Assembly (NCBI GenBank): GCA_020851635.1
Contig: JADZCJ010000140.1
Coordinates: 186,001 to 250,000 of the forward strand
Reading direction: 5' to 3'
Source: Anaerolineae bacterium
GTDB taxonomy: Bacteria > Chloroflexota > Anaerolineae > UBA4142 > SHND01
DNA: 64,000 bases
Position numbers and translations under genes: made by a program. Each line of letters opens with the position of its first letter. The first letter of the stretch is position 1. The notes beneath the pieces were generated by a model that saw only the letters and a program-made list of their open reading frames with translations, made no database searches and was not told the DNA's origin. Positions 42,827 through 61,601 of this stretch are shown piece by piece.

Positions 42827-43210
42827 TTACTTTGATTGTGCCGGTGTCGTTTGCTCGGTTGCATCATCGTCCGCGGTTTCATTCTCCGCAGAGTCTGTCT
42901 CGGACGCCTCCTCAGACTGATCGTCGGGACCCGATTGATCCCCGCATTGCAATTCCACCTTGTCCGTATCGTTGTCCGCGCCGTCGTTTACTTCTTGATC
43001 ATCGGGCGTGTCATTCGCGCACGGGTCTGAAGCTTGCGCGGCGGGGGCTTGTTGGTTGAGCGCTTTTGCGCCCGCGCGCGCTTGAACCTGCTGCGAAATC
43101 GCTGCGCTTGGACTGTCGGATGGTACCATCGCGAATGCCAGATTGAGCGGCAGCGCCATCCCAAAGACCGTCAATGCCAACGCGATCAAAACTAGAATGT
43201 TTTTCTTCAT
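42827..43210 (-). CDS. Small acidic exported protein, unknown
   Basis: A 127-residue exported protein: signal peptide (about 1-27) then a low-complexity acidic region rich in Asp, Glu, Ser and Thr with two Cys (DPCANDT and LQCGDQ). It would be highly charged on the surface, perhaps binding cations. Its promoter shares a 13-mer with the response regulator gene, so it is likely a target of that two-component system. No family is recognised. Confidence 0.65.
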   Translation of the reverse strand: MKKNILVLIALALTVFGMALPLNLAFAMVPSDSPSAAISQQVQARAGAKALNQQAPAAQASDPCANDTPDDQEVNDGADNDTDKVELQCGDQSGPDDQSEEASETDSAENETADDDATEQTTPAQSK

Positions 43211-43271
43211 GCCTTCTCCTTGTCAAGAATCGTGCGGAGTTTGTTCTTGAATCTACAAAGAGTGTAACGCG

Positions 43272-43294
43272 GCAAGATGAAGTTTGGGCAAGAT
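43272..43294 (-). promoter_or_regulatory. Site shared with response-regulator promoter
   Basis: GCAAGATGAAGTT at 43272-43284 matches 42752-42764 exactly, and GGCAAGAT recurs 16 bp away (43271 and 43287). Likely bound by the OmpR-family regulator at 42023. Confidence 0.45.
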
Positions 43295-43346
43295 TCAACA
43301 TGAATGTTTCTTCATGTAGTGAATTCACTAATTATTCCTAGCTGTT

Positions 43347-43739
43347 TTAACGCTCGAGTCCGAAGAGAAAATGAATCATCAAGCCCGCCACGAGGAGCCA
43401 AATGAATACAATCAAAATCGCCGCGGCGCGATTAATGGGTTTGCCTTGCGCCATCACCGCACGCGCTCGGGCTTGACATTCGGCTAACACTTGGTCGGGA
43501 ATCATTCGCACTGCGAGGGCAATGCCGAGCGGAATAATTACGAGATCGTCCAGGTATCCGAGAATTGGAATGAAATCAGGGATGAAGTCAATCGGACTAA
43601 AGGCATAGCCAACCACGAGTGCGGTAAAAATTTTTGCATGCCATGGCACCCGCTTGTCACGATACGCGAGGTAAATCGCGTAGACTTGAGTCTTGAGTTC
43701 TCGAACACGCTGTTTCCATTCCCCAAGAAATTTCTTCAT
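43347..43739 (-). CDS. DUF1232 (YkvA-like) membrane protein
   Basis: A 130-residue protein matching DUF1232: central helix with the family hallmark ALVVGYAFSPIDFIPDFIPILGYLDDLVIIPLGI, preceded by VPWHAKIF and followed by a C-terminal helix. The PIDxIPDF block is diagnostic. Function is unknown. It lies 3 bp after the CopC-CopD fusion gene, so it is probably co-transcribed. Confidence 0.88.
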   Translation of the reverse strand: MKKFLGEWKQRVRELKTQVYAIYLAYRDKRVPWHAKIFTALVVGYAFSPIDFIPDFIPILGYLDDLVIIPLGIALAVRMIPDQVLAECQARARAVMAQGKPINRAAAILIVFIWLLVAGLMIHFLFGLER

Positions 43740-43742
43740 ATC

Positions 43743-46652: not shown

Positions 46653-46712
46653 ACTTGCAATTCTCCCGTTTCACCAGGCGGCTGGGGGCCGGCCCTTGTT
46701 CCTTTACTACCG

Positions 46713-47771
46713 TCACGCATGCGAGTGCGCAGGCAAGCCGTCGTGCACATGTTGAATACGTTGATGATACTTCTCACCCGACGTGTGTTGCGGGTCCACA
46801 TGCACTACGGCATTCCCGAGATGTGGCAGGTGATGCAAGAGTTGATGCCGTACCTCGTTCGCAATCGCGTGACCCTCGACGATGGATGACTTGGGGTCGA
46901 CCGCGACATTTAGCTCGGCGTACAGGCGGTGACCCGCCCAACGCGCGCGCACCTGTGATACTTCTGTTACGCCGTTCACGTTCCCCGCCGCGTGTTTCAG
47001 TTCGTCGATGATGTCGGGTTCGACGCCATCCAACAGCCGCGCAAAAATGGTTGCCCCTGATTCCCACACGATCCGTAAAATCGCAAGCGTGATAAACAAC
47101 CCGATCAGTGGATCGAGAATGGGAAACCCGAGCCACGAGCCAATCGCCCCAATCAAGACGGCAAGACTGGTCCATCCGTCGGTGCGCGCATGATATCCAT
47201 CCGCAATCAACGCCGCGCTGCCGATTTCCTTGCCCACGCGAAGCCGAAAGATTGCTACCCCTTCATTGCCGATAAAGCCGACGATCGACGCAAGCGCGAC
47301 CGCCCAAACTAAACTTACGGGTTGCGGGTCGAACAGACGAAGAACGGATTCATAGCCCGCGACCACCGCACTCAACAATATAAGCCCGACGACGATCACG
47401 CCCGCCACATCTTCGGCGCGCCCCAAGCCGTATGAAAAACGTTTTGACGGTTTGCGCCGCGCCAACAAAAATGCAATGCCCAACGGGATTGCAGTCGCCG
47501 CGTCGCCAAAATTGTGAATGGTGTCTGCAAAGAGGGCAACACTCCCCGAGACCAGGACAATGACTACTTGAAACAGCGCGGTTGCCATCAATGCCACAAA
47601 TGACCACTTGACCGCCCAAAGTCCTTTAGATGTGGTCACAATGGAGGGGTCGATCGCGCCGTGTGTATGTCCATGCGCCGCGTCGCCATGGGATTTTTCT
47701 GCTTTTGCCGGTTGATCCGACTCGTGTTCGTGAGAGTGTTCCGAATCCGAATGTTTGTGATTGTCTGCCAT
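46713..47771 (-). CDS. Cation diffusion facilitator transporter
   Basis: A 352-residue CDF exporter: His-rich N-terminus (HKHSDSEHSHEH, then HGDAAHGHTHG), six helices, and a cytoplasmic C-terminal domain ending in another His segment (PAHSHA). The tetrahedral metal site is intact: His-x3-Asp in DTIHNFGDAA (TM2) and in DGYHARTDG (TM5). Zn(II) is the most common substrate of this group, but Co or Ni are possible. GGAGG precedes ATG 47771. It lies 59 bp upstream of the CopC-CopD fusion. Confidence 0.92.
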   Translation of the reverse strand: MADNHKHSDSEHSHEHESDQPAKAEKSHGDAAHGHTHGAIDPSIVTTSKGLWAVKWSFVALMATALFQVVIVLVSGSVALFADTIHNFGDAATAIPLGIAFLLARRKPSKRFSYGLGRAEDVAGVIVVGLILLSAVVAGYESVLRLFDPQPVSLVWAVALASIVGFIGNEGVAIFRLRVGKEIGSAALIADGYHARTDGWTSLAVLIGAIGSWLGFPILDPLIGLFITLAILRIVWESGATIFARLLDGVEPDIIDELKHAAGNVNGVTEVSQVRARWAGHRLYAELNVAVDPKSSIVEGHAIANEVRHQLLHHLPHLGNAVVHVDPQHTSGEKYHQRIQHVHDGLPAHSHA

Positions 47772-47844
47772 CCTGACCTCCACTTGAAATTAACTGACGA
47801 TTACGCAAAGTTGCTCGCTGCTCAGAGGGACAAGAAAATACGTT

Positions 47845-48351
47845 TCAATGGTCAATCGTCTCGGCTTCAACATGCCTTTTCGTTCGGTAACGCCTATGGA
47901 GCCCAACACTGACGGCTATCAGGAGCACCATGGCTACAGAGAACCCCGCCATGAATGGCGCCATCATTTCGCGATTGAATTGCGGCTTGCGTTCATCTAC
48001 GGGCGCAGCAATCACCAATACGATATTCGATACGGCAAGCTGGTTGCCTTGTTGATCAAAGAGTACGGCTTTCAAACGATGGGGTCCGGTTGGCTTGAAG
48101 GAAATAGCCACCGATTGTTCCCCATTGCGCACACCGACGACGGGTTCTTCGTCCACCCACAATTCCCAATAGTGGCCATCGTTCGGTAAAACACCAGAGA
48201 TCTGAACTGTTACTTGCGCGTTCTTGTCGGGCACATTTCGGCGATCCTGCGGTTTCACGATTTGAATGGAAGCGGCTGATTGCGCGGCAACATTTCCTAC
48301 AAACCATAGTGTAACGACGAGCAGCGCAATGCTGACAAGCACCCGTTTCAT
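47845..48351 (-). CDS. Exported Ig-like protein with C-terminal anchor
   Basis: A 168-residue protein: signal peptide (about 1-23), an immunoglobulin-like beta domain (about 28-118, IQIVKPQDRRNVPDKNAQVTVQISG), then a C-terminal helix (about 133-152) and a basic tail. It is anchored on the outer face. The domain resembles the CopC-type or DUF4399-like beta sandwich but lacks a His-brace start. It overlaps the next upstream gene by 4 bp. Confidence 0.7.
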   Translation of the reverse strand: MKRVLVSIALLVVTLWFVGNVAAQSAASIQIVKPQDRRNVPDKNAQVTVQISGVLPNDGHYWELWVDEEPVVGVRNGEQSVAISFKPTGPHRLKAVLFDQQGNQLAVSNIVLVIAAPVDERKPQFNREMMAPFMAGFSVAMVLLIAVSVGLHRRYRTKRHVEAETIDH

Positions 48352-49511
48352 TCAGCCGCTCGGGCAGCGCTGGATTTCATTCTGGCGCGCACACGTTGTG
48401 CTTCCTCACGCATCAAAATTCGTTCCACCCCCTCTGCTACCCATGCACCCAACACCAGACTTGTTGTGCCAACCGCAATGCCAAGCGGGACCATCACCAA
48501 AGTTTTTTCAATGGGCCACCACGGATAGCGCGTGAGATACCACGCCCACAGAAATTCAAAGGCGTAGAACGTCAGCACAAACACGGGTCCAAAGAACAAC
48601 AGCCAGCGTTTGCCCATTCCAAAACGCGCAAACGCAGTGTCGAGCAGCAGCGCGCTTGGTATCGCCATGATGGGCAAACTCGCCATTTTCGGCACTCCAA
48701 AACCCTGCAAAGTCATTCCCACTATGGCAGACCATAGGAACGGCACAACGACGACAAAGGTTGCAGCGCCCGCTCGATTTGTCACGCGCTGCGCGACGAC
48801 GAGCAGCGCGGGTCCAAATAACATCGCCAGAATCGGATAGATCGAGCCGTCAAAGCGCAGCTTGTCATAGATTAACCAGCGGTCGAGCGACATCCCCGCA
48901 ATCTGTGACGCGAACCAGCAAAACAACATCAACACCCCAAGATTTGGCATGTCGAGTTTTTGCCAGAACAGCACAGGTTTGCCGTCACGTGTTTTGGGCG
49001 TATGCACTTGCGGCAAGATAAACAGCACTCCGCCCGCCAATGCTAACAGAGCGCCGCACATGCCGATAAAGTGCGGCGGACTCCACAGGACGATATCGCC
49101 TTCGACATGCCCAACGTTGCGGTGCCACCAGTCGTCATACGCCGCGCCGCTATACATAATGGTCACACCGATGAGGGCGATCCAGATGCCCAATGGCGCC
49201 TGTACTTTGCCAAAATGAATCATACCGGGATCGCGCGGGCGGCGCGAGGCGGTCACGATGATTCCAATCGAAATCGCGGTTGCCAATGCGATTCCCCCGT
49301 ACATTAAATCGTGTGGGGGAATAAAAAAACTATCGCGTCCCCACGACGCATGCCAGGCGCCATCCCACAACAATCCGGTAAATGCCAACCATCCTGTGGC
49401 CACAAAGCCCCATGCCGCGAGGGAAAGTCCCCAAACCCGTCGCGCTAGAAAACCCTCGCCCCAATTCACCACTTCGACCCACATACTTGAAACCATTGTG
49501 CTCATGTTCAT
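48348..49511 (-). CDS. Polytopic membrane protein with conserved His/Trp sites
   Basis: A 387-residue protein with about ten helices. It has striking His/Trp/Asp motifs at membrane-loop borders: GAWHASWGRD, IPPHDLMY, YDDWWHRNVGHVEGD and SPPHFIGMCG, which could bind metal or heme. I do not recognise a family. Its place among copper and cytochrome genes suggests a copper- or heme-related membrane function, but this is inference. Confidence 0.65.
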   Translation of the reverse strand: MNMSTMVSSMWVEVVNWGEGFLARRVWGLSLAAWGFVATGWLAFTGLLWDGAWHASWGRDSFFIPPHDLMYGGIALATAISIGIIVTASRRPRDPGMIHFGKVQAPLGIWIALIGVTIMYSGAAYDDWWHRNVGHVEGDIVLWSPPHFIGMCGALLALAGGVLFILPQVHTPKTRDGKPVLFWQKLDMPNLGVLMLFCWFASQIAGMSLDRWLIYDKLRFDGSIYPILAMLFGPALLVVAQRVTNRAGAATFVVVVPFLWSAIVGMTLQGFGVPKMASLPIMAIPSALLLDTAFARFGMGKRWLLFFGPVFVLTFYAFEFLWAWYLTRYPWWPIEKTLVMVPLGIAVGTTSLVLGAWVAEGVERILMREEAQRVRARMKSSAARAAE

Positions 49512-49517
49512 TCTCTC

Positions 49518-49772
49518 CTACTGTCCCAAAGCCACACTTCGTAAGCCAAACACCGCCAACACCAGCGCTCCGACAAGAAATCCGATGGTGAGGGTGTAAA
49601 TAAGTATCCGTCCCAAGCCGCGCGGCGCGTCCTGGGGCAAAAGGAACGAATAGACGACAATGCCAAGAAAGACCGACAGAATCGCCAAGTCAAATTCCCA
49701 ATGCCCCGTCAACACGCCGCCGTGTGCGACGATCAATTGCCCGCGTGAAAGCGGTTCGATTGCTGATGGCAT
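49518..49772 (-). CDS. Small membrane protein, unknown
   Basis: An 84-residue protein with a polar start (IEPLSRGQLIVAHGGVLTGHWEFD) and two helices (about 27-44 and 55-78). It lies 6 bp upstream of the polytopic protein gene in the same operon. No family is recognised. Confidence 0.6.
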   Translation of the reverse strand: MPSAIEPLSRGQLIVAHGGVLTGHWEFDLAILSVFLGIVVYSFLLPQDAPRGLGRILIYTLTIGFLVGALVLAVFGLRSVALGQ

Positions 49773-49783
49773 GAAAAACAGAG

Positions 49784-49810
49784 ACCATTGGGGTCATTGA
49801 CCCCAATGGT
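49784..49810. terminator. Long GC-rich intrinsic terminator
   Basis: A 12-bp stem (ACCATTGGGGTC / GACCCCAATGGT) with 3-nt loop is followed by T7 on the plus strand; on the minus strand a T5 stretch follows after 5 nt. It separates the CopC gene at 49821 from the downstream membrane genes. Confidence 0.85.
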
Positions 49811-49820
49811 TTTTTTCTCG

Positions 49821-50429
49821 TTAACGTCGCGCGCGACCCATCAGTCCGAATCCAACCAACCCGAGCCCGATCAAGGCAATCAACACAAATCCGAGATTTG
49901 ACATTGCTGCGCCGGTTGTCGGAAGCGTCGTTGCAGGAGCAGATGGCGCCGGTGCTGCCGTTGGTTCCGGCGCCGCCACTGTTGCAGTTGGCTCCGCAGC
50001 GCTTGTTGCGGCGGCAGTCGGCTGTGCGCCCGAGGGACTGCCTATGGTGAACGTAAATTCACCCTCTTCGGCTTCATTATCTTCTGTCGAAAGCGTTGCC
50101 CATTTGACGGTATAGACGCCCTCCGGCATCTTTGCCGTGTCAAACGAAACGGAAATGGTTTTGCGGTCGGGGTCATTCAAGTCCACCGCCGAATCGCCCT
50201 TGTCCACTGGCATACCACTCGCGTCAAACACTTCAAGTTTTGATGCATCCGGGTCCATTGACTGTGTCGTCGTACAGACGATCTTGTCCGGTGCGGTCTC
50301 TACAGTGCTGTCAATTGCCGGGGTACAGCTCTGAGGTTCTGCGTGCGCTTGTGCCAAAGGCACAAGCGCAGTTGATGCGAGCACGGCCAGTACCATCAGT
50401 GCACTAATACTTGCCATTACGCGTTTCAT
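49821..50429 (-). CDS. CopC-domain protein with LPXTG-type sorting signal
   Basis: A 202-residue exported protein: signal peptide (about 1-28, ending LAQAHA), a CopC-like beta domain (about 29-125) beginning with mature His-x-Glu (HAEPQSC), a long Ala/Pro/Thr linker, then LPTTG followed by a hydrophobic stretch and a basic tail (RARR). LPTTG plus helix plus positive tail is a classic sortase signal, so it may be linked to the cell wall. ATG 50429 is preferred over 50444 (GGAGA upstream). It is a paralogue of the CopC domain in the next gene. Confidence 0.82.
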   Translation of the reverse strand: MKRVMASISALMVLAVLASTALVPLAQAHAEPQSCTPAIDSTVETAPDKIVCTTTQSMDPDASKLEVFDASGMPVDKGDSAVDLNDPDRKTISVSFDTAKMPEGVYTVKWATLSTEDNEAEEGEFTFTIGSPSGAQPTAAATSAAEPTATVAAPEPTAAPAPSAPATTLPTTGAAMSNLGFVLIALIGLGLVGFGLMGRARR

Positions 50430-50515
50430 TAAAGTTTTCTCCATGTGGATTGTGGAATTGATTCAGCGCGTACATCACGCGCAAGTCCGTTACTTTGGGT
50501 TACTTGAACTATCCC

Positions 50516-51865
50516 TTATTCGACCGTGACCTGGACCGTCCACGTGTCGTTCGGCGTCGGTGTTATGCTCGTTTCCCAGGGGCGAACATAGACGAGCGTG
50601 AGCGGCGTCTGTCCTTTACCGACCGCTTGAAAGTGAAAGGTCTGCGTTCCGCCTGCTCCCGGCATGGGCGTCGTTTGGGCTTTTAGGTCGAATTGCGCTG
50701 CACCCAGAGGCACCAACACACTTGCATTATTCGAAGCGACCTTCCACGAATATCCGGTGCTCGGGTTGGTTGGGAGTTCAACTTGCAGCGTATCCCCGAC
50801 CGCCATGTCCACGGTTGAGCCGTTGTCGCTCGCGGTGAGGGTATGGTCAATCGTCCCTGCCGCCGGATGATTCGGGCTGCTGTCAGAGACAAAAACATTC
50901 GGTAGTGCGGTGGGCTGATATCGCACGACGCCGGTCAAGTCGACGCCGCGCACGACTCCGTTCGCCTTGTAGGTCAGACCCCACGAGTCAATCGACGAGA
51001 GATCGGGAAAGACACACATGCTGACCACCTGTAAATTAGCCGCACTATCGGATTCATCGGTTACCCAGCCGCCGCCCGCCGCACTGTTCATCCCGCCGAA
51101 AACATCGGTGCCTCCCAGCTTGGTGCAGTATCCGGTAGAAGGATTCGCTCCGGTAAACGGCGGGAGCGAAACGGGTTCGAGATAGGCGAGAACGGCGAGC
51201 GTTGGCTCATCCGCATACAATGTGTCGAGCGCAATCGAAATTTGCGATTGAAAGCCGGTCGAATCCGCCGGTGCGTGGAACGTGCAAAAGTCACGAGCCC
51301 CGGCGAGGCGGAGCCATCCGCTCACAGAAGCGTTGGTGTTGTAGGTTGGATAACGGGTTGTAACAGTGCCGCCTTTTTCGTTGCAGTACGCGGCGGCATC
51401 GTCCTCGCCTTGCGTCCCAGCACGCGTTGGCTCGGCCGCAGCGGTCGCCGTTGCGGTTGGCTGCGCCCCAGTACCGGATATGGTGAATGTAAACTCACCT
51501 TCTTCGGCTTCATTGTCTTCTGTTGAAAGGGTTGCCCATTTGACCGTGTAGACGCCATCGGACAGCTTTGCCGGATCGAGCGAAACCGAGATGGTTTTGC
51601 GGTCCGGGTCATTCAAATCCACTGCCGAATCACCCTCGTCCACCTGCGTGCCGCTTGCGTCAAACACTTCAAGTTCCGAATTCGCCGGGTCCATTGATTG
51701 AGTCGTCGTGCAGACAACCTTGTCAGGCGCCGTTGCCACTGTGCTATCTATTGGCGGCGTACAGATTGAAGGTTCAGAGTGTGCCTGCGCCACAGGGATA
51801 AAGGCCATTGAGGCAAGCGCGGCCACTAGCATGAGCGCGCCGATGCTTCCGAGAATGCGTTTCAT
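50516..51865 (-). CDS. CopC-chagasin (I42 inhibitor) fusion protein
   Basis: A 449-residue exported protein: signal peptide (about 1-28), a CopC domain nearly identical to that of the neighbour (HSEPSICTPPIDSTV...KTISVSLDP), a Thr/Ala linker, a middle domain with several Cys, and a C-terminal chagasin-type protease-inhibitor domain (NPSTGYSW loop, then GAGGTQTFHFQAVGKGQ, and RPWE). Chagasin domains block papain-like cysteine proteases. Why a copper-binding fold and inhibitor share one chain is unknown. The CopC domain probably arose by duplication within this locus. Confidence 0.88.
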   Translation of the reverse strand: MKRILGSIGALMLVAALASMAFIPVAQAHSEPSICTPPIDSTVATAPDKVVCTTTQSMDPANSELEVFDASGTQVDEGDSAVDLNDPDRKTISVSLDPAKLSDGVYTVKWATLSTEDNEAEEGEFTFTISGTGAQPTATATAAAEPTRAGTQGEDDAAAYCNEKGGTVTTRYPTYNTNASVSGWLRLAGARDFCTFHAPADSTGFQSQISIALDTLYADEPTLAVLAYLEPVSLPPFTGANPSTGYCTKLGGTDVFGGMNSAAGGGWVTDESDSAANLQVVSMCVFPDLSSIDSWGLTYKANGVVRGVDLTGVVRYQPTALPNVFVSDSSPNHPAAGTIDHTLTASDNGSTVDMAVGDTLQVELPTNPSTGYSWKVASNNASVLVPLGAAQFDLKAQTTPMPGAGGTQTFHFQAVGKGQTPLTLVYVRPWETSITPTPNDTWTVQVTVE

Positions 51866-51885
51866 TAAATTCCTCCGTTAGAATT

Positions 51886-52293
51886 CTAGATGTTATTTGA
51901 TTGTAATGTGTGGGTGTCAGCATGAGGTTTTGGCGGAGGAATGATAACGGGCAAATCAACTGCGCGGGCATAAAAGCAATCCCGGACACGATATTCACAA
52001 AAATCATTTATCCTAGAGATCCAAGACAGCGCGCTCGGCGTACTCAGGTCGGTTGAACTGAAAAGGGACGACAATCCATCATTCGTCGCAACCGCTGATA
52101 TTCGCACTCCAGGGCCCACGGGTTTCTGGGTTTGTGGGAGGCGATGATTTTCCCCGTGCGCCTGCCAGTCGCGCGCAGTGACACGCCCACTCGCAATATG
52201 ACCGTGCGGCAGGAACAAGCCCCACGTTGGCACGAGTGGCATCAAAAACTGCAGCGTAAGCCATGCCGCGAGAAAAGGACGTAGAAAATTCAT
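51886..52293 (-). CDS. Small exported protein, unknown
   Basis: A 135-residue protein with a hydrophobic start (about 5-26) and a polar remainder containing several His (HGHIAS, HGENHR, HADTHT). The frame ends 20 bp before the CopC-chagasin gene, within a gap of 4 bp after the methyltransferase-like gene. No family is recognised; it might be real because spacing fits an operon. Confidence 0.5.
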   Translation of the reverse strand: MNFLRPFLAAWLTLQFLMPLVPTWGLFLPHGHIASGRVTARDWQAHGENHRLPQTQKPVGPGVRISAVATNDGLSSLFSSTDLSTPSALSWISRINDFCEYRVRDCFYARAVDLPVIIPPPKPHADTHTLQSNNI

Positions 52294-52297
52294 TGGC

Positions 52298-52900
52298 TTA
52301 AATCCAACGCCGTACTCGATGCGTATATTCGCGGTACACGTCGCCGTGAACCCGTGTTAAAAATTCCTCTTCCAGTCGAACCTGAACGCCGATCAACGCA
52401 ACACTCATTACTAATACCAGCAAAGTCAGCGCGTTTGGAATGACCAGAAACAAGCCGACGAGTGCCGCGACCAATCCGAGAAAAATTGGATTGCGCGATA
52501 TGCCAAAGATCCCCGTTTGAACGAGCGCCGTTTTATTTGCTTTGTCGATGCCAATGCGCAACGAATTGCCCATTTGAATTTGCGCAAGAACGGTCCAAAC
52601 CAGCGACGCGAGCAACAAAATCAATCCACCCGACACCAGCAGCGCGTGTTCGAGCCACAAAATGGGTGCAAGATACTCATAAAACTGCGGCGCGAATGCA
52701 TAAATAATCACGGCCGCGAGCGCGAGGCTGACGACAATGCGAAACATCCGCACCACAAAATCATGGGCACTGTCCCCGCGCGTGGCGACAAATGGGTTTA
52801 CACCCGTCGCGCGCCATACCATCACCGGTCGCCACACGAACGTTGCGGCGATGAACAGCAGAAAATAAAGTGGCAGAAAAATTTGTAGTGCGTTGTCCAT
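52298..52900 (-). CDS. Isoprenylcysteine methyltransferase-like membrane protein
   Basis: A 200-residue membrane protein with about five helices and the ICMT/PEMT-type C-terminal pattern: LVQTGIFGISRNPIFLGLVAALVGLFL (SAM-binding RNPxxxG-like) and RLEEEFLTRVHGDVYREYTHRVRRWI. Such bacterial proteins methylate unknown small substrates or lipids. ATG 52900 is chosen because the upstream extension lies in the terminator of nirK. It lies 4 bp from the small exported protein gene. Confidence 0.75.
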   Translation of the reverse strand: MDNALQIFLPLYFLLFIAATFVWRPVMVWRATGVNPFVATRGDSAHDFVVRMFRIVVSLALAAVIIYAFAPQFYEYLAPILWLEHALLVSGGLILLLASLVWTVLAQIQMGNSLRIGIDKANKTALVQTGIFGISRNPIFLGLVAALVGLFLVIPNALTLLVLVMSVALIGVQVRLEEEFLTRVHGDVYREYTHRVRRWI

Positions 52901-52937
52901 CAGCTCAAGGACTTGCAATGATTGAGACTTCCAAGAC

Positions 52938-52972
52938 GTTTGCGCTGCCCGCGTCCCGCGGGCAGCGCAAAC
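52938..52972. terminator. Perfect 16-bp hairpin after nirK
   Basis: GTTTGCGCTGCCCGCG (52938-52953) pairs perfectly with CGCGGGCAGCGCAAAC (52957-52972) around 3 nt. No T-run follows, but the stem is very stable. Confidence 0.7.
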
Positions 52973-52986
52973 ATGTTGCCTCAAGC

Positions 52987-54144
52987 TCACGGGGTCGGCT
53001 GTGGCGAGTAAATGCTATCGTCCCACGCACCTTCGACAGTTAGAAGACCCACAGCTCCTTTAGCGACCCGCCACAGGGCATGGTCAACCAGCGTGTAACT
53101 GCCCGGGACTTCGAGCTTGAGCTCAAATATGGACACTGAGCCCGGCGGCACGTACCAAGTCTCTTCATTTCGGACGAACGTTTCGGGTGAGCCGCTGTAG
53201 ACTTTATCAAAGATCTCACCAATGATATGGAAATTGGATCCCACATTAGGACCGCCCACGCCAAAATAGACGCGGATCGTCTCGCCCACGCGCGCTCGGA
53301 GCGGAAAGAGCTTGGTCAGCGCATCCACGTGCCCGTTCATCGTAAAGTACTCGGGCTGCTCGGCAAGTGCCTTGGGAGTGCTGAATTCCTGGTGCCCCTT
53401 GTCGCGAAACTTGCCGTTTGTATACCAGTCACCCTGCACGACGTAATACTCGCGGTCCACTTTGGGCAGCCCACCACGCGGCTCGACGACGATGCCGCCG
53501 TACATGCCTTGGGCGATGTGATAGTACGGCGGGGGATACGCGCAATGATAGATATACGCGCCGGCATTCAGCGCCTTGAAGGTAAAACTTTTGGTTTCTC
53601 CGGGTAAAACGTCCGTCACGGCTGCGCCACCGCCGGGTCCGTTGACTGCATGCAGGTCAATATTATGTCCTACACTGCTCGACGACGGGTTCGTCAGGGT
53701 CACCTTAACCGTATCCCCTTCCATCACGCGCAGCATGGGACCCGGCACTGTACCGTCAAACGTCCAGAAGGTGTACGTTGCGCCATCGGCGATTTCGGCT
53801 TTGACCTCTTTGATTGTCAAATTTATTTCGACGTTTGCCGGTTCGATGCGGTTGAGTGGGGGCGCTACCTTGGCAGGATCGAGCGCTACGTTGGGTTGAT
53901 CCACCGGCGCGGCAGGCTGGAGCGGCGCGACCCCGATGCGCTCCACGGCGGTTCGGATGCCCGCGTCCGGCGGCGCGCCAGCGGGCGAAGACGCTGTAGT
54001 CGAATGGTCCATTGGCGTGGGTGTCGCGGGGACAATGGGCACTGGCGGGGTGCTGCACGCCGCCACACCCAGTCCCACGCTGGAAGCGCCCATCAGTGCA
54101 AGAAATTTGCGCCGGTCAATCGGTCGTTTTGATTTCGAGTCCAT
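52987..54144 (-). CDS. nirK: Copper-containing nitrite reductase, Tat-lipoprotein
   Basis: A 385-residue multicopper oxidase fold reducing nitrite to NO. Type 1 copper ligands: His160, Cys201, His209, Met214 (HCAYPPPYYHIAQGM). Type 2 copper ligands: His165, His200 and His355 (VDHAL) from the next subunit. Catalytic Asp163 (NIDLH) and His306 (SNFHIIGE) are present. The N-terminus has a Tat motif (RRKFLALMGA) followed by a lipobox (GVAAC, Cys30), so it is exported folded and lipid-anchored. GGAGG lies 6 nt before ATG 54144. It is placed with CopC/CopD genes that can supply copper. Confidence 0.92.
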   Translation of the reverse strand: MDSKSKRPIDRRKFLALMGASSVGLGVAACSTPPVPIVPATPTPMDHSTTASSPAGAPPDAGIRTAVERIGVAPLQPAAPVDQPNVALDPAKVAPPLNRIEPANVEINLTIKEVKAEIADGATYTFWTFDGTVPGPMLRVMEGDTVKVTLTNPSSSSVGHNIDLHAVNGPGGGAAVTDVLPGETKSFTFKALNAGAYIYHCAYPPPYYHIAQGMYGGIVVEPRGGLPKVDREYYVVQGDWYTNGKFRDKGHQEFSTPKALAEQPEYFTMNGHVDALTKLFPLRARVGETIRVYFGVGGPNVGSNFHIIGEIFDKVYSGSPETFVRNEETWYVPPGSVSIFELKLEVPGSYTLVDHALWRVAKGAVGLLTVEGAWDDSIYSPQPTP

Positions 54145-54225
54145 ATTTATCCTCCGTTTATAGTCGCTGGTTTGCATCCGAGTCAATCGCACTGAAACGC
54201 AATTGGTTGGTGAGCAAACGCGCCT

Positions 54226-56472
54226 TCATGGCGTCGGCGTCTGCGCGGGCGCAAGTTCCGCCACCAGCGCGCGCAAGACCGAATCGTAAATCACCATGTT
54301 GAACTCTTGCGTGACACGCTCGGACAAGCTTGCCAGCAATTCGTCATGTCGGTCGTGCGTCATTTTTTCTCGAATCGCCTCTTTTGCCTGCTCGAACGGT
54401 ACGAGCTGCGGCTCACTGCGCTCGATCACTTGTACAATGTACAGACTGTCGCCGTACAAGAACGGCGGGCTAATTTCATTGACACCGAGCGACAGGACTT
54501 GCTCGTGAAATGGGTGATCGCTCATTTCAACCAATTCGTCGAATCCTTCGCCGACCCAGCCGTCGAGTTCTCCCCCTTTTGCTGCTGACTCTTGGTCTTC
54601 CGAATACTCACCTGCGATCGTCGCAAACTCTGCACCTTGCTGGAAGGGGCCGGGCAAAAGTTTGCGATACGCCTCGATTGCCCTTTCCTCCGCCCGTTTT
54701 TCTTCATCCTCAGTTTGCCCCAATCCAATGCGAATGTAACGAATCCGCGATTCGGGCGGCTTGACGAGACGTGCTCGATTTGCATCATAGAATTTTTGGA
54801 GTTCCTCATCACTGATCTCGATCTGATCATCCACATTTTCTTGATGATACATCTGCTTTAACACATCGAGGCGTGTCTCTTCCAGTTCGTCTTTGTTCTT
54901 GACATCCAACAAGCGGTCATAAGTGTCCTCGACAACGAGCAAGCGCGTGATCAAATCTTCCGCGAGGCGTTTACGCCCTTCCGCACCCTCATAGCTGATG
55001 CGCACATCCGGTGGCAGTTCCTCATATTCTTTATAAAATTGTTCGAGTGAATACCGCTGTCCCTTGATCGTGAACAATGTTTTCGCGCCATTTGTCTTGA
55101 ACCACTCGTCTGTTTTTTGTTGCCGCACCAATTCAAGAATTTCTAGCCGCGCGCTCGCAAACGCTGCAATCCGTTCGGGCTGCAATTCGCGCAGGCGCAC
55201 AATCGAAAATACGGCGTCGTCATCAGTAATCACATCGCTCACTTCGTCGGGCTGCATCCCCCACACGGTCGTTTGCCAATCGACGCTGCGCGTGCCGCTC
55301 ACCACGGTTGTCGCCGTGAACACGTTCGTCCCTGTGATTTCTTGGGACGCTTCCACAAAGCTCGCTCCCGAACGAATACGGAGTAGCGCTGCGTCCGCGC
55401 GGCGGCGGGCGTCCGCTTCGTCAGCCTCAATTGGGATTTCGAGCTCGTCCACCACGCCCTGCGAAGGCAATTCGAATTGTTCGCGGTTTGTTTGATAGTA
55501 CTGCGTCAGATCGTCTTCGGAAGGGTCAGGCACATCCAGCAGGGCGAGATCTTTTGAAATCGACGCGTTCGCTTTCAAGCGATCAATATATTCCTGGATG
55601 TAAGAGTTTTCGCGTTGGCTTGCCAACTGATCGCGAATTTCCTGACGCACTTCGTCGAGCGTTCTGCCTTGAAATTGGTCCCGATTCTGTTGATAGTACG
55701 CTTGAATTTCGCTTTCTAGCACGGGAATCTCACTCGTGTGCATTTGGGAGTGGAGCGAATCGAGGTTCAATTCTTCCGTAATGTGCTGCATCGTGTGGCT
55801 GAACGTCTCTTGCGCGTCCACCTTACGTTCCGCCGCCCAGCGGCGGATTAATTCGTCCAGGACCATTTCTTGCGCCAACGCGCGCAAGTTTTCGAATGTT
55901 CGTACCTGTTCCCGGGCTTGTTCCGGGACGAGCACCGCGAGGTGCGCGAGCAATTGATCGCGCGTAATTTGTCCCTCATTAAACGACGCGACAACGTCGG
56001 GTGCTGGCGGCTTGGGTGCAAGCAGTTCCTCCACTTGCGCTGTAAGGGAGGGAAAAAAGAGAATCGCAAGCATGCCCAACGTGATGATGGTGACAGCAGC
56101 CATGCCGAGGCGGCTTGCCCAGCGCGACCATTGGGTTGGCGGCGCGAGCGTTTCGCTCTGCGCTTCAATCGGCTCAAACGAGGTTAACGGGTCAGCATCG
56201 GAGGATGGGATTTTGCCGGTTGGTTCCGCGTGGGCGCCGATTTCGCCTTTTGCGATTGCTTCAGACCATGTAACCGATTCCGTCGCCGATGCGCTCTCGA
56301 CGGATGTCCCCCGTGTGTCCGCGCCTATTTCCGCGAGCGGCGTGTGCGCTTCGTTTAGGTCCGCAGCGACATCCACGCGCGTTTCAACTTCTGGGACCTG
56401 CCCGGGCGGCGCGGGAGTGCCGCGCACCGAGTTTACGATATCAGACCAAACTTGTTTCCAACTTTCGTGCAT
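54226..56472 (-). CDS. PpiC/SurA-type peptidyl-prolyl isomerase, membrane-anchored
   Basis: A 748-residue protein: cytoplasmic N-terminal tail (about 1-130), one helix (131-153), then a long external region with a SurA-like N-domain (VVASFNEGQITRDQLLAHL) and repeated parvulin-type rotamase sections, the last ending PFLYGDSLYIVQVIER. It would help fold exported proteins at the membrane. The neighbouring HflK/HflC-type genes suggest a membrane quality-control set. Near the C-terminus the chain carries an LAPAQTPTP tail. Confidence 0.85.
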   Translation of the reverse strand: MHESWKQVWSDIVNSVRGTPAPPGQVPEVETRVDVAADLNEAHTPLAEIGADTRGTSVESASATESVTWSEAIAKGEIGAHAEPTGKIPSSDADPLTSFEPIEAQSETLAPPTQWSRWASRLGMAAVTIITLGMLAILFFPSLTAQVEELLAPKPPAPDVVASFNEGQITRDQLLAHLAVLVPEQAREQVRTFENLRALAQEMVLDELIRRWAAERKVDAQETFSHTMQHITEELNLDSLHSQMHTSEIPVLESEIQAYYQQNRDQFQGRTLDEVRQEIRDQLASQRENSYIQEYIDRLKANASISKDLALLDVPDPSEDDLTQYYQTNREQFELPSQGVVDELEIPIEADEADARRRADAALLRIRSGASFVEASQEITGTNVFTATTVVSGTRSVDWQTTVWGMQPDEVSDVITDDDAVFSIVRLRELQPERIAAFASARLEILELVRQQKTDEWFKTNGAKTLFTIKGQRYSLEQFYKEYEELPPDVRISYEGAEGRKRLAEDLITRLLVVEDTYDRLLDVKNKDELEETRLDVLKQMYHQENVDDQIEISDEELQKFYDANRARLVKPPESRIRYIRIGLGQTEDEEKRAEERAIEAYRKLLPGPFQQGAEFATIAGEYSEDQESAAKGGELDGWVGEGFDELVEMSDHPFHEQVLSLGVNEISPPFLYGDSLYIVQVIERSEPQLVPFEQAKEAIREKMTHDRHDELLASLSERVTQEFNMVIYDSVLRALVAELAPAQTPTP

Positions 56473-56513: not shown

Positions 56514-57704
56514 TTACGGCTGCGGCAGACTCTGCGGGGGCGGCGCGTCATTTCCATTCTCCGACGCGCCATTGCTGCCACTGGAATTTCCGAACAATCG
56601 CAAATTGAACGTACTGCCGTTTTTAACATCCACGACATAGGTTTGGACACGCGGCAAAATTAGGTCGAGTGTTTCCAGGTAGAGGCGATAGCGTGTCAGT
56701 TCAGAACCGTAAATCTGGGTGCTTTTTTGATATTCTTGCAGCACAGCGTTGAATGCCTGCGCGCCGCCTTGCGCGCGCCCTATGGCGTCGCTTTGGTAGG
56801 CCTGCGCCTGGCTCAAAACATTTTGTGCCTGTCCACGCGCTTCGGGAATGATGCTGTTGGCATATCCCTGCGCTTCGTTCACGGCGCGTGTTTTGTCTTC
56901 GCGTGCGGACGATACATCCCGAAACGCGTTCGCAACTTCATCCGGGGGATATGCTTTTTGCAAACTCAAGCCGACAATCTGGAGTCCGCTGTTGTACGCA
57001 TCCAATTGTTTTTGCGCTTCCGCGCGAATCCCATCTTGATATGCCTGACGTTCGCTGGTCAGGATCGCATCCACGCCGCGTGTGACGGTGAGCTGCGTCA
57101 CTGCATAGCGCACTGCGTCGCGCACGAGGCGATACGGCGCATAGCGCGAATTGAACAGGTAAGCGACAGGATCGCTCACCTGATACTGGACGATTAATTC
57201 GACGTCAATCACGTTCGTGTCGCCCGTGATCGCTTGCAGTTTTTCCGGCTTTTCGGGGTGATCGGGATGCTCGGGTTCCGCCTCGGTCAAACAGACGCTC
57301 TCACGGCGTACTTCACCTACGTTCACAATGTCCACCTGGTCAACGGGCCAGGGTAAACGATAATGCAGCCCTTCGCCTTGCGGAGGAGACATGACCGCGC
57401 CGAAACGCCGCACGACTGCGGCTTCGCCCGGTGCGACAACGTACACCCCCGACAATAGATACACCAGAATGAGCAGCGCGATCACGCCGAATACAATGCC
57501 CCGTTTTGGCAAATTGCCGATCGCGCTGCGCATGTCGCCCGCCGCATCGCCGCCTATAGTGGCGATGCTTGCCAACGCACCACGCGCAATGTTGCCAAGC
57601 ACGCGGATCGCGGGCAGTGGCCCTTGGGGCGATTTTTCACCGTCCCCTGATTCAGGTTCCGCGCGTGGCTCGGTGCTTGGCGTCATTGGTTCTTGTTCAC
57701 TCAT
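56514..57704 (-). CDS. hflK: HflK-type SPFH protein
   Basis: A 396-residue SPFH protein: cytoplasmic Pro/Glu-rich start, one helix (about 72-94), a GVYVVAPGEAAVVRRFGAV stretch and an SPFH domain with the long coiled C-terminal helix containing REDKTRAVNEAQGYANSIIPEARGQAQN. HflK and HflC together form a large membrane ring around FtsH in other bacteria. It lies next to an HflC gene with 9 bp between them. An Asn-rich C-terminal tail follows the coil. Confidence 0.92.
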   Translation of the reverse strand: MSEQEPMTPSTEPRAEPESGDGEKSPQGPLPAIRVLGNIARGALASIATIGGDAAGDMRSAIGNLPKRGIVFGVIALLILVYLLSGVYVVAPGEAAVVRRFGAVMSPPQGEGLHYRLPWPVDQVDIVNVGEVRRESVCLTEAEPEHPDHPEKPEKLQAITGDTNVIDVELIVQYQVSDPVAYLFNSRYAPYRLVRDAVRYAVTQLTVTRGVDAILTSERQAYQDGIRAEAQKQLDAYNSGLQIVGLSLQKAYPPDEVANAFRDVSSAREDKTRAVNEAQGYANSIIPEARGQAQNVLSQAQAYQSDAIGRAQGGAQAFNAVLQEYQKSTQIYGSELTRYRLYLETLDLILPRVQTYVVDVKNGSTFNLRLFGNSSGSNGASENGNDAPPPQSLPQP

Positions 57705-57713: not shown

Positions 57714-58643
57714 TTACGGCGCGGGCGATTCAATCGTCACGGTGCGCGTTGCCGGCACAGATGCAGCGACCGAACTTGGATTGAGATATTGCAAGAGTTC
57801 CGAATCGGACGGCAAAATCAGAGTCGTGTTGGCGTCAATAATCGTTTGATACGATTGTAGCGTTCGAAGGAAGCGATAAAAATCGGGGTCTTTTTGGAAC
57901 GCGTCGGCGTAAATGCGAATGGCTTGGGCATCCGCGTTGCCGCGAATTTCTTCGGATTCCTGCTGTGCGTCCGCAAGGATTTGCGCCCTGTCCGCGTCCG
58001 CTTTCGCCCGAATCTTTGCCGCTTCTTCGGTGCCCTCGGAACGCAATTGCCGCGCAATTGCTTCGCGCTCCGCCTTCATCCGTTGGTACACGCTGTTCAA
58101 GTTGGCTTCCGGAAAGGTTAATTGTTTCACACGCACATCACTGACGGTAAAGCCATATGGCGCGGTGCGGCTCGCCGCGCCGTCGCGCACCCTTTGACTC
58201 ACGTTCGCGAGTTTGATCTGTGCCGCGTCTACGGTGGCGAGCTGTGCGAGTTCGACTTGGCCGACGGCAACGCCAAATTCGGCGGCGAGAATGTCCGCCA
58301 AGCGCCGCGACGCACCATCCGCGTCACGGGTGCTCTTGTAAAAGAGGAGCGGGTCTTGAACTTGCCAAGTTGCGTATGCTTCGACGACAATGTTCTTTTT
58401 GTCGGACGTCAACAGTTCGGTTTTCGGCAGGTTAAAGACTTGAAGCTGCCGATTGATTCGCAGCACGCTTTGAATCGGATCAGGCAGTTTGGCGTACAGC
58501 CCCGCGTCCGTGATGGCGCGTACCGGTTGTCCGAATTGTGTAACAACGGCGTATTCGGTGGTGTCCACTTGGAACAGCACAAGCGTCACGCCGACAATCG
58601 CGGCGGCGATGACAATCCAGGGAATCCAGCGGGACCATTTCAT
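57714..58643 (-). CDS. hflC: HflC-type SPFH protein
   Basis: A 309-residue protein: TM near residues 7-27, then an SPFH domain (about 28-190) with the HflC-like VDTTEYAVVTQFGQPVRAI start, and a long coil with EREAIARQLRSEGTEEAAKIRAKADADR and QAIRIYADAFQKDPDFYRFLRTLQSY, close to E. coli HflC. It acts with HflK at the membrane. It follows the CDF-HflK fusion gene by 33 bp, so all three may be co-transcribed. Confidence 0.93.
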   Translation of the reverse strand: MKWSRWIPWIVIAAAIVGVTLVLFQVDTTEYAVVTQFGQPVRAITDAGLYAKLPDPIQSVLRINRQLQVFNLPKTELLTSDKKNIVVEAYATWQVQDPLLFYKSTRDADGASRRLADILAAEFGVAVGQVELAQLATVDAAQIKLANVSQRVRDGAASRTAPYGFTVSDVRVKQLTFPEANLNSVYQRMKAEREAIARQLRSEGTEEAAKIRAKADADRAQILADAQQESEEIRGNADAQAIRIYADAFQKDPDFYRFLRTLQSYQTIIDANTTLILPSDSELLQYLNPSSVAASVPATRTVTIESPAP

Positions 58644-58676: not shown

Positions 58677-60218
58677 TTATTGGTTCGGCAAGGCGGGAAA
58701 AGTTTGTGGCGCGTCGTTGCCTGTGAGCCAGAGATCTGTGGAATCGAGTTGAACGCGCGGATCGAGAATAAATTTGCGCGGAGTCGCCAGCGCGCGCTCG
58801 GCGGCTTCCAAATACAATCGCAAACGCGTCACCGCGGGCGCACTCGCATACGCTCCTTCGCGGGCAAGAAAGCGATTGGCTTCGCCTGTTGCGCGTGCGA
58901 TTTTGTCCGATTGATACGCGTTCGCTCCCTGGATCAACGTCTCTGCATCGCCGCGGGCGACGGGAACGATTTCGTTTTGATAGGCGAGGGCTTCATTCAC
59001 AAACGTATTCTTGTCCTCGCGCGCGCTTGCCACATCGCGGAATGCCGCAGCGACAGCTTCAGGCGGATTGCTTTCCAGGAGCTGCACATCCACCGCGCGC
59101 AAGCCGGCGTTGTACCCTTGCAAGGTATCCTGCAAGACCCGGAGCGCGCCCTGTTGAATCGCTGCCTTATCCGTCGTCAAGAGCGCGTCTACGCTTTTCT
59201 CGGCGACGACCTGACGCATCGCCGCTTCTGCGGCTTGACGCACTGTGTCGTCGGGCTTGACCATTTGAAATAAATACGCCGCAGGGTCGTCCACAACGTA
59301 ATGTGCACCCACGCGCACATTTACCAGACTTTGATCTCCGGTCATCATCAGCGCTGCCTTCGTTTCTACGCGGCGCACAGCGGATGGATTGACAAAATCC
59401 GCCCGGTCAACTGGCCATGGGAACCGATATTGCAGACCGGGCCCGTTCGGGGGACTAACAACTTGTCCAAAATGACGGACGACGGCGACCTGATCGGCCG
59501 GGACAGTGTAAATGCCTGTGAGCAAATACAACACCGCAAACATTGCGAGGGCGCCGAGCGCGAGGCGCCGCCAATTCCCCGGCGAATGTTCCGCGTGTTC
59601 GTCAATTTCTAACGCGCGCTGCGCGCGCAATGCCGCAATCGCGTCGCGCAAAATTTCGTACGCCGTGTATACAACGAACAAAACGACAACAACCGCTGCC
59701 GCGCGATCCAGGTTTGGTAAGCCCAGCGCAGACCCGGCCAGACCTGCAACGACGATGATGCTCGCGTACAAGTCAATGCGCGCGTGATAGCCGCTGGCAA
59801 TGAGCGCAGGCGAATTGGTCTCCTTGCCAACATAGAGTTTGTAGCGCGAGGTGAACCATGCAACGAGGACGGTGAGAATCGCGGCGAAGGTGACAGGAAG
59901 TAGATTTTTCAATTCGACATCGCCGCCCTGCATCACTTCACGGAAAATGTCGAACGCGGCGTACAGCATAAAGAGGCCGACGACAACGGCAAGGAGGTTT
60001 TCAATCATCGCGGCGGCGTTGCGCCGCTGCACGCTCGCGGTACGCGCGAGCAGCAGCCCGACGAGAATAAAGACGCCGAGAAACAGATCGCCGAACGAAT
60101 GGACGGCGCCCGCTTGCAGCGACAAACTGCCCGACGCATTCGCCAGCCAGAACTTCACGGCGACAAGTAGTGCGTCAATAAAGAGTGTAATCAGAATGGT
60201 GCGTTCTTTACGATTCAT
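58677..60218 (-). CDS. CDF transporter-HflK (SPFH) fusion
   Basis: A 513-residue chimera. Residues 1-200 form a cation diffusion facilitator membrane domain with both halves of the metal site intact: HSFGD (TM2) and HARID (TM5). Residues 225-513 form an SPFH/HflK domain: helix (about 220-242), IYTVPADQVAVVRHFGQVV, and a long coil with ASAREDKNTFVNEALAYQNEIVPVARGDAE. It therefore couples a metal transporter to a membrane-scaffold domain, in the same operon as stand-alone HflK and HflC. The usual cytoplasmic CDF C-terminal domain is replaced by the SPFH part. Confidence 0.92.
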   Translation of the reverse strand: MNRKERTILITLFIDALLVAVKFWLANASGSLSLQAGAVHSFGDLFLGVFILVGLLLARTASVQRRNAAAMIENLLAVVVGLFMLYAAFDIFREVMQGGDVELKNLLPVTFAAILTVLVAWFTSRYKLYVGKETNSPALIASGYHARIDLYASIIVVAGLAGSALGLPNLDRAAAVVVVLFVVYTAYEILRDAIAALRAQRALEIDEHAEHSPGNWRRLALGALAMFAVLYLLTGIYTVPADQVAVVRHFGQVVSPPNGPGLQYRFPWPVDRADFVNPSAVRRVETKAALMMTGDQSLVNVRVGAHYVVDDPAAYLFQMVKPDDTVRQAAEAAMRQVVAEKSVDALLTTDKAAIQQGALRVLQDTLQGYNAGLRAVDVQLLESNPPEAVAAAFRDVASAREDKNTFVNEALAYQNEIVPVARGDAETLIQGANAYQSDKIARATGEANRFLAREGAYASAPAVTRLRLYLEAAERALATPRKFILDPRVQLDSTDLWLTGNDAPQTFPALPNQ

Positions 60219-60363: not shown

Positions 60364-61020
60364 TTACGGTGCGGGTGTCGGCATCGAATGATCCATCGGC
60401 ATCGGTGTTACTTCAGGCAGCGGCGCGCTGCCTGATTTTTCCAACAATCCCTTCATATAATCGATTTCTGCCTGCTGCCCTTTGACAATGTTGTCCGCGA
60501 GACGTTTGACAATGGGCTGGGAGCCCTTTTGCAATTCCTCTTGCGCCATTGTCACGCCGCCTTCGTGATGACGAATCATTACCGTGAGAAATTGCTTTTC
60601 GAGTGCGGGGGAGGGCAGGGTTTTCAACGCGTTCACTTGTTCCTGCGTCGCCATGCCCATCATGTTTGCGGCTTGTCCGATCGGCGCGGCCGCTGGCTGT
60701 CCCCACATTTCGAGCCAGCCTTGCATCATGCCAATTTGGCCTTGTTGCGAAAGCATGATGTCGTACGCCATTGTTTTCAAGCCTTCGTCGTTCGTGCGGT
60801 CATGCAAATAGGTTGCCATTTCCACCGCTTGCGAATGATGTACGGTCATGTTTTGTGCAAAAGCAATATCGGCGCTCGAGACGCTGGGTTGGAAGAAGCG
60901 CGCGATCAGAAACCCAAGCCCGAACGCGGCGAGGACACCAACGATTCCGAGTGCCCACCACACGCGATTCGTTCTCGCTTCTTGCTCTTCCAACGGCGCT
61001 TGATCTGAATGGTCTTCCAT
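60364..61020 (-). CDS. DUF305-family exported protein
   Basis: A 218-residue protein: short cytoplasmic tail, one helix (about 22-44), then a DUF305 domain made of a helical bundle with the hallmark HHSQAVEMA near the first helix and IRHHEGGVTMAQEEL in the second. It ends with a Met/His-rich tail (MPMDHSMPTPAP). DUF305 proteins occur with copper genes and may bind copper through the HH pairs. GAGG lies 6 nt before ATG 61020. It overlaps the upstream gene's end region only at alternative starts. Confidence 0.88.
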   Translation of the reverse strand: MEDHSDQAPLEEQEARTNRVWWALGIVGVLAAFGLGFLIARFFQPSVSSADIAFAQNMTVHHSQAVEMATYLHDRTNDEGLKTMAYDIMLSQQGQIGMMQGWLEMWGQPAAAPIGQAANMMGMATQEQVNALKTLPSPALEKQFLTVMIRHHEGGVTMAQEELQKGSQPIVKRLADNIVKGQQAEIDYMKGLLEKSGSAPLPEVTPMPMDHSMPTPAP

Positions 61021-61028
61021 GCGATTCC

Positions 61029-61601
61029 TCATCCTAAAGGCGTTCCAAGCCCGCCGGCGCATGTTGCGCCGCGCTCAGGTGTAAAAGGTCCATTCTGGTA
61101 CGTCGAAATAAAGTTGGGTAAGCGAGGGTCATTCGCGTTGTTCATTTTGATCTGCGCACCCCACCCGCTCGCGGCAATCGCCGAGGGCAAGTCCTCAAAC
61201 GGCGAGAGCAAAACGTAACGCTGCCCGCGCGCGAGATTTTGCAATTGGCTAACCTGGTCGGCAGGCAAATCGGGTTGATATGTAATCCATAGTGCCCCAT
61301 GTTCCATCGAATGAACTGCATTTTCATTGCGAAGCGGCTGGTCATAGATGCCGCAGTTCTGCCAGACCGGATTATGTTCCCCACCAACCGGAGGGGTTTG
61401 CGCGTACGTCACTGCCTCGTCGGTGTGCCCTGCAGAGACGCTGGGAAAAATCTCAATCCCTTCTATCGGTCTCGTTTGTGTGGCAGAGAAAAGCAAGGTG
61501 CCCAGGAATACAAGTGCCACGATGCCTAATCCAATCCACAACCAGGGAATTTGCCGTGTCTGCCGTGCGGCTTGCGCGCGATTTTTATTTGCTCTAGTCA
61601 T
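61029..61601 (-). CDS. DUF3105-family membrane-anchored protein
   Basis: A 190-residue protein: short basic start, one helix (about 20-42), and a DUF3105 domain with the conserved YAQTPPVGGEHNPVWQNCGIYDQPL and NAVHSMEHGALWITYQPDL, then CAGG. The HxxW-Cys and HSMEHG motifs are likely metal- or redox-related. Function unknown. AAGGAGGAG precedes the ATG, and TGACA-T-TGTCA palindrome lies just upstream. It is followed by the DUF305 gene. Confidence 0.9.
   Translation of the reverse strand: MTRANKNRAQAARQTRQIPWLWIGLGIVALVFLGTLLFSATQTRPIEGIEIFPSVSAGHTDEAVTYAQTPPVGGEHNPVWQNCGIYDQPLRNENAVHSMEHGALWITYQPDLPADQVSQLQNLARGQRYVLLSPFEDLPSAIAASGWGAQIKMNNANDPRLPNFISTYQNGPFTPERGATCAGGLGTPLG

Follow-up and report, generated by a model that had tools for sequence, protein, structure and literature searches.

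A CDF metal transporter domain fused to HflK in a four-gene module shared with an alphaproteobacterial plasmid

Here we present a gene from an Anaerolineae genome whose product joins, in one chain, the six-helix transmembrane domain of a CDF metal transporter to an HflK protein of the SPFH type. The gene is accompanied by hflC, a second hflK and a gene for a PpiC-type prolyl isomerase, a four-gene module that recurs in all six hosts in which we found the fusion, among them a conjugative plasmid of an alphaproteobacterium, and that has moved horizontally. We read the product as a Zn2+-type divalent-metal CDF exporter that would be built into the HflK subunit of a mixed HflK/C ring, as part of a mobile metal-stress module, and we put the probability of this reading at roughly 0.6. 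Both halves come from known families; a CDF joined to HflK or to SPFH, the four-gene module and its horizontal spread are not described in the open-licence PMC papers found. SPFH rings are commonly regarded as organisers of the membrane, and what they gather is mostly inferred. A transporter covalently tied to a ring subunit would name the cargo and make a coupling of ion flux to HflK/C-FtsH directly testable. Throughout, the window is the whole stretch of 64,000 nucleotides that was analysed, and all coordinates without another source refer to it.

Architecture of the fusion protein

The fusion gene and the parts of its product are located as follows.

58677..60218, minus strand: CDF-HflK fusion gene (K1), 513 aa, running from an ATG at 60218 to the stop at 58677 with no internal stop
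59622..60194, minus strand: CDF transmembrane domain, residues 9-199, six helices (Pfam; DSSP on the model)
60087..60101, minus strand: metal-site half 1, H40-x3-D44 in helix 2, aligned with YiiP D47/D51
59772..59786, minus strand: metal-site half 2, H145-x3-D149 in helix 5, aligned with YiiP H155/D159
59586..59597, minus strand: histidine pair H208/H211 in the predicted cytoplasmic linker, occupying the place of the CDF C-terminal domain
59520..59576, minus strand: seventh transmembrane helix, the HflK membrane anchor, residues 215-233 (model helix)
58761..59513, minus strand: HflK domain (SPFH and long helix), residues 236-486 (TIGR01933; phmmer to E. coli HflK)

The initial annotation had proposed that a complete CDF membrane domain, with both HxxxD halves of its metal site, and a full SPFH domain share this chain, and on all but one point the closer analysis agrees with it. 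The open reading frame is intact and both halves score above the cut-offs of two collections. In Pfam, residues 9-197 match Cation_efflux PF01545 (E 1.9e-24, 87 bits, cut-off 26.6) and residues 238-410 match Band_7 (E 7.8e-19, 68.8 bits, cut-off 23.6); in NCBIfam, residues 5-200 match the CDF family TIGR01297 (84.7 bits, cut-off 82.35) and residues 236-486 match hflK TIGR01933 (212 bits, cut-off 159.4), so that the HflK portion is present with its transmembrane helix and a complete SPFH domain. Both halves also exceed the curated Pfam cut-offs in four further copies, PF01545 being found in all five proteins scanned, the window's included, and the copy on the alphaproteobacterial plasmid scores 215.3 bits against TIGR01933. 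The point that did not stand is the completeness of the CDF part: its six-helix transmembrane domain is entire, but the cytoplasmic C-terminal domain is missing. The corresponding dimerisation domain, ZT_dimer, is absent from the window protein and from all four other fusions scanned with Pfam, and after helix 6 a short linker leads directly into the seventh membrane helix. CDFs that lack this domain are on record, their function being unclear (PMC6465983, in excerpt), so its absence does not exclude membership of the family.

The residues of the metal site align with site A of YiiP, which consists of Asp47, Asp51, His155 and Asp159 (PMC10617992, in excerpt). The first HxxxD, in helix 2, is present in all six fusions and the second, in helix 5, in five; the sixth copy, that of Chloroflexi bacterium FW602_bin.16 (L009/G659), reads HxxxH there. 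The HD-HD site is thus kept in five of the six copies, and the canonical site, judged from the alignment, is not invariant.

An AlphaFold2 model, built on a 43-row alignment of sequences from the loci gathered in this analysis, has a mean pLDDT of 86.3 and a pTM of 0.56, a value at which the relative placing of the CDF and HflK halves is unreliable and is not fixed by the model. Within the halves, DSSP assigns the CDF helices to residues 3-29, 32-60, 63-97, 106-133, 137-164 and 169-207. Residues 1-205 find their best match in YiiP (8f6k_B; Z 23.2, rmsd 2.6, 201 aligned), the top four YiiP matches having rmsd 2.2-2.6 over 187-201 residues, and residues 218-462 match E. coli HflK (7vhq_E; Z 18.3, rmsd 7.5, 242 aligned). 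E. coli HflK is also the top Foldseek match of the fusion, and phmmer aligns residues 224-504 with 7vhp_E at E 1e-49. The SPFH strands follow the anchor helix 215-233 in the model, and the counts of lysine plus arginine in successive loops alternate along the chain (3, 0, 3, 1, 3, 1, 5, 1), a positive-inside pattern that predicts a cytoplasmic N-terminus, seven helices and an SPFH domain on the outer side. The predicted outside position, which comes from the charge pattern and the model, is the one that HflK requires.

The module, its recurrence and its descent

The initial annotation had also placed the gene in an operon with separate HflK and HflC, and both are found immediately downstream, together with a fourth gene; metal-related genes lie on either side.

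57714..58643, minus strand: hflC, 33 nt after the fusion; TIGR01932, 186.8 bits, cut-off 134.4
56514..57704, minus strand: hflK2, 9 nt after hflC; TIGR01933, 215.5 bits, cut-off 159.4
54226..56472, minus strand: PpiC-type (SurA/PpiD-like) prolyl isomerase, 41 nt after hflK2; Pfam Rotamase_2, E 7.9e-27
60364..61062, minus strand: CopM-type DUF305 metallochaperone upstream of the fusion; NF049983, 96.6 bits, cut-off 90; not conserved with the module
40636..54192, minus strand: heavy-metal island on the other side of the module

The same join of CDF to HflK occurs in five other assemblies. The FW602_bin.16 copy, from a MAG, is a full-length fusion (query residues 1-512, best segment 41% identical), and genome G807 carries an intact fusion of 514 aa. 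In G081 the fusion can be followed over 499 residues at 48% identity and reaches the contig edge just past the last motif. In G653 a contig end splits it, and the two contig ends share an exact 141-base overlap and continue each other. The fifth is NZ_CP018172.1, a complete conjugative plasmid from Aquibium oceanicum (Alphaproteobacteria), which holds an uninterrupted fusion with 50% identity over 99% of the length and which, among 76 plasmid records matched, was the only one to cover at least 80% of the query. An artefact, either a missing stop or a false join in assembly, had been named from the outset as what might lie behind the fusion, and it is true that the window genome is in 144 contigs and that the related genomes are incomplete assemblies; with the same join in five other assemblies, one of them a complete plasmid, with the linker in frame every time and with no relative seen in which CDF and HflK are two separate genes, we reject this explanation as having next to no probability.

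The plasmid copy is annotated solely as HflK, a curated name that hides the transporter half, so that other copies may sit unnoticed in databases. The fusion is not conserved across the phylum, as the initial annotation had suggested might be checked, and is not a general trait of it: at E <= 1e-60 a search of 400 phylum genomes finds it in two, one of them the window's own, and it is present in Alphaproteobacteria as well. Among 298 genomes of the class, 16 match the CDF half at 1e-25, two as fusions (G000, G653) and 14 as separate CDF proteins. Further samples, which overlap and so are not additive, gave one fusion in 29, one in 148, three in 20 and one in 400, and the five same-genus genomes searched at 1e-35 gave none. 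Of these five, G604 (L081, L082) has two contigs that share a starting point shortly before hflK2 ends and that both extend into the isomerase gene, and it therefore probably has two copies of the module that were cut off or collapsed by assembly. Among viral contigs, 80 stretches fit a pattern derived from the alignment and none was confirmed; the two matches among phage records are to HflK only. A scan of genome contigs with exact peptides from one sequence found one relative, and a scan so narrow under-samples the spread beyond the phylum, as the plasmid match shows.

All six hosts have the four genes CDF-HflK, HflC, second HflK and PpiC-type isomerase. In five of them hflC could be read directly beside the fusion; in G081 the contig stops after the fusion, and an incomplete hflC stands before hflK2 on a second contig. 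The window and the Aquibium plasmid have the order fusion, hflC, hflK2, isomerase, and in the other four hosts the isomerase gene lies immediately upstream of the fusion, its stop overlapping the fusion start by 4 bases in G807 and G653 (the full gene order in G653 and G081 was assembled from two contigs each). By comparison, the 23 plain-HflK loci of the phylum (L056-L078) have hflC within 1.5 kb flanks in 22 cases and an isomerase of the module type in none. Genes for FtsH-type peptidases are present in all three other hosts searched (G653, G081, G659).

Trees of the separate parts tell a consistent history. In the SPFH tree of 32 HflK rows, the six fusions form one clade (99/97), the six hflK2 proteins form another (100/99), and the two clades are sisters, apart from the 20 other HflK proteins (95/85). 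In the CDF tree the fusion halves form one clade against 16 separate CDF proteins (100/100). Plain-HflK loci contributed 16 of 23 rows, near-duplicates and rows of odd length having been dropped; the N-half of G653 was omitted from the SPFH tree and its C-half from the CDF tree, and the three other CDFs of the window's own genome stood in one earlier tree only. Support is low at some inner branches (82/69 and 87/51 in the SPFH tree) and one fork of the hflK2 tree is open, so the three trees are compatible and not identical in every fork. Their agreement indicates that HflK was duplicated, that one copy then gained the CDF domain in a single fusion event, and that the module has been transmitted as a unit. 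Within the clades, G807 pairs with G653 in the CDF, SPFH and hflK2 trees, with G081 and G659 on their side, and the window groups with Aquibium (CDF 98/93, SPFH 99/97, hflK2 100/99). Since the window clusters with an alphaproteobacterial plasmid copy, whose gene order it also has, and not with G807 and G653 from the order to which its own genome belongs, the phylogenies show that the module has moved horizontally, in one direction or the other. An HflK/C module can, then, travel on a conjugative plasmid together with metal-resistance genes.

Both halves of the fusion are under purifying selection, which by these comparisons acts more strongly on the CDF half: between G807 and G653, the CDF half is 85% identical (dN 0.10, dS 1.37) and the SPFH half 73% (dN 0.21, dS 2.06), with dS near saturation in both. 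These figures bear on whether the CDF half might be an inert extra membrane anchor left by a chance fusion. Sequence by itself proves no transport, and the HxxxH in helix 5 of one copy speaks for this reading; but the first half of the site is intact in six of six copies and the second in five, and in the same pair of genomes the CDF half is better conserved than the SPFH half, all of which makes an inert anchor very improbable.

Metal-related surroundings and proposed function

A heavy-metal island surrounds the module in two of the six hosts, the window and the Aquibium plasmid. In the window it contains cztS/cztR-like two-component genes, whose best NCBIfam matches fall short of the cut-offs set for TIGR01386 and TIGR01387, a CopC-CopD-cytochrome protein, a full CDF exporter (46713-47783), two CopC proteins and a copper nitrite reductase; the window genes scanned around the module include no P-type ATPase gene. 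On the plasmid, a gene for a heavy-metal P-type ATPase begins 81 nt after the isomerase, with a ZntA-like family as its best match (NF008262, 840.6 bits, below the cut-off of 1005) and with scores above the cut-offs of the cadmium family TIGR01512 (522, cut-off 313.5) and the copper family TIGR01511 (414, cut-off 397), and PCu(A)C, SCO, CopC and CopD genes lie around the module. Surroundings were readable in five hosts, the G081 contig being too short to judge, and in three of these (G659, G807, G653) no clear metal genes stand beside the module.

Several neighbouring genes of the window are composite in their own right. The CopC-CopD protein (43743-46652) has 969 residues and ends in a cytochrome-like stretch, and the product of 50516-51865 joins a CopC domain to a peptidase inhibitor domain of the chagasin family. 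An ArsR/SmtB-family regulator (39772-40434) has a C-terminal rhodanese domain, as does the hydrolase-like product of the adjoining gene (38364-39752).

Other hflKC pairs were also met on plasmids, with an antiporter beside them in three of the four loci fetched: in Vibrio (L090, NZ_CP013250.1, 6842-10229) the genes hflK, hflC and nhaA follow one another with 4-base overlaps, in Methylophaga (L091, NZ_CP143310.1, 6929-10113) hflKC is followed by cation:proton antiporter reading frames with a heavy-metal P-type ATPase near, and in Roseibium (L089, NZ_CP045621.1, 1273-8940) nhaA lies about 4 kb from hflKC; the fourth, from Tistrella, is an ordinary hflKC locus. The HflK proteins of L089, L090 and L091 form one clade with that of L077.

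FtsH is a zinc protease, and HflK builds a membrane cage around the protease. That the fusion may place an exporter within the HflK/C ring can fairly be inferred, because by its score the HflK half is a genuine HflK and because HflC and a second HflK accompany it. As we picture it, the CDF part would use the HD-HD site to export a divalent metal, most likely Zn2+, in exchange for protons; the seventh helix would bring the chain to the outer face of the membrane, where the SPFH domain would join HflC and HflK2 in a mixed ring; and the fusion protein would take HflK places in the cage, with its CDF domains lying within the membrane at the base of the cage wall. YiiP and similar CDFs act as homodimers, and their cytoplasmic C-terminal domain may stabilise the dimer (PMC6465983, PMC10617992, both in excerpt). 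The HflK/C ring could supply the stabilisation lost with that domain, the SPFH ring gathering the CDF units in its stead. The module also carries a foldase of the PpiC type, for which reason we read it as combining metal export with envelope quality control under metal stress: together the parts would set metal export at the HflK/C-FtsH site and tie metal load to the folding and turnover of envelope proteins, and metal export may thus be built into a protein quality-control machine. A more detailed version, in which the cage holds the CDF subunits in register through a ring of HflK1, HflC and HflK2, metal flux and substrate access to FtsH are coupled, and the four genes form a mobile metal-stress module spread across phyla, we consider possible rather than probable.

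HD-HD sites favour Zn2+, with exceptions that include iron transporters (PMC6465983, in excerpt), and copper genes make up much of both islands, so that zinc is a candidate for the metal, if the most likely one. The ZntA-like neighbour on the plasmid fits zinc, and the copper genes speak against it.

The linker between helices 6 and 7 is variable and aligns poorly among the six fusions, always remaining in frame. All six carry two or more histidines there inside a stretch of five residues (EHAEH, AHRH, GHLEH, GHIEH, HGHLH, SHLEH), as against a close pair before the membrane helix in one of 21 HflK proteins without a CDF domain, a comparison that was picked after the alignment had been viewed and for which the shuffle product handles related sequences as independent and gives no p-value. 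We take the pair as a lead towards a cytoplasmic metal-binding site that may have replaced the lost C-terminal domain and through which the linker might sense cytoplasmic metal.

Such a site would also suit a different division of labour, in which the CDF half serves as sensor or gate and metal bound at the HD-HD site and the linker histidines changes the packing of the helices so as to open or close the HflK/C cage around FtsH. The openness of HflK/C has been proposed to control access to FtsH (PMC12048511, in excerpt), the usual CDF dimerisation domain is missing, one copy in six has an altered site, and the linker pair is in all six. Against this, CDFs without the dimerisation domain, of unclear function, are on record (PMC6465983, in excerpt); the entire six-helix domain is kept under strong purifying selection, beyond what a bare sensor would need; and the transporter that neighbours the module on the plasmid favours flux. 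We therefore regard a sensor or gate as unlikely, if the least unlikely of the alternatives.

SPFH proteins organise membranes, and a still weaker case can be made that the fusion serves co-regulation and equal dosage only, the transporter working alone and the SPFH domain clustering it in a membrane patch with no coupling to proteolysis. Nearness alone may be what is selected, given that plasmid hflKC pairs also stand beside unfused cation/proton antiporters. That all six hosts keep hflC, a further hflK and a foldase in the module points instead to a quality-control assembly, and we think co-regulation alone improbable.

Comparison with known systems

The fusion resembles E. coli HflK of the HflK/C-FtsH complex (PDB 7vhp, 7wi3, 9cz2) in its transmembrane helix, SPFH domain, long C-terminal helix and adjacent hflC, and differs in having a six-helix CDF domain in place of the cytoplasmic N-terminus and, at the level of the module, in adding a second hflK and a PpiC-type isomerase. 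With the CDF zinc transporters YiiP/FieF and ZnT1 it shares the six-helix fold and the four site-A positions, its HD-HD site being that of the human ZnTs (PMC6465983, in excerpt); it differs from them in its seventh helix and predicted external SPFH domain, and in having no ZT_dimer and therefore no YiiP site C.

The nearest separate CDF relatives returned are CDF proteins of the same phylum (L015-L030), which keep ZT_dimer and add a NifX-type domain (PF02579; four of the 16 were scanned, ZT_dimer in L022 lying just below the cut-off) and which form a clade separate from the fusions. That order of domains was not found in any fusion scanned with Pfam, and a derivation of the CDF half from a CDF-NifX gene is not supported, the fusions forming a clade of their own. 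These CDF, ZT_dimer and NifX-type proteins recur in the window's class, and in 10 of the 16 ExxxH replaces HxxxD in helix 5.

A functional parallel is the PA2434-PA2439 cluster of P. aeruginosa, in which HflK/HflC-type genes and the gene of the P-type ATPase HmtA are induced by zinc depletion (PMC4542158, in excerpt). Its first promoter is bound by Zur with zinc (PMC8531726, in excerpt), and its HflC and HflK proteins are more abundant in zinc-depleted cells (PMC11761036, in excerpt). Like the Aquibium plasmid, it combines a heavy-metal P-type ATPase with three genes of the HflK/HflC type; it differs in being induced by zinc depletion and in that the excerpts, by whose description and not by sequence the two were compared, mention no CDF half. 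Because the Pseudomonas genes answer a lack of zinc, what is parallel is the partnership of HflK/C with metal transport and not the direction of that transport, and they suggest independently that metal transport and HflK/C belong together.
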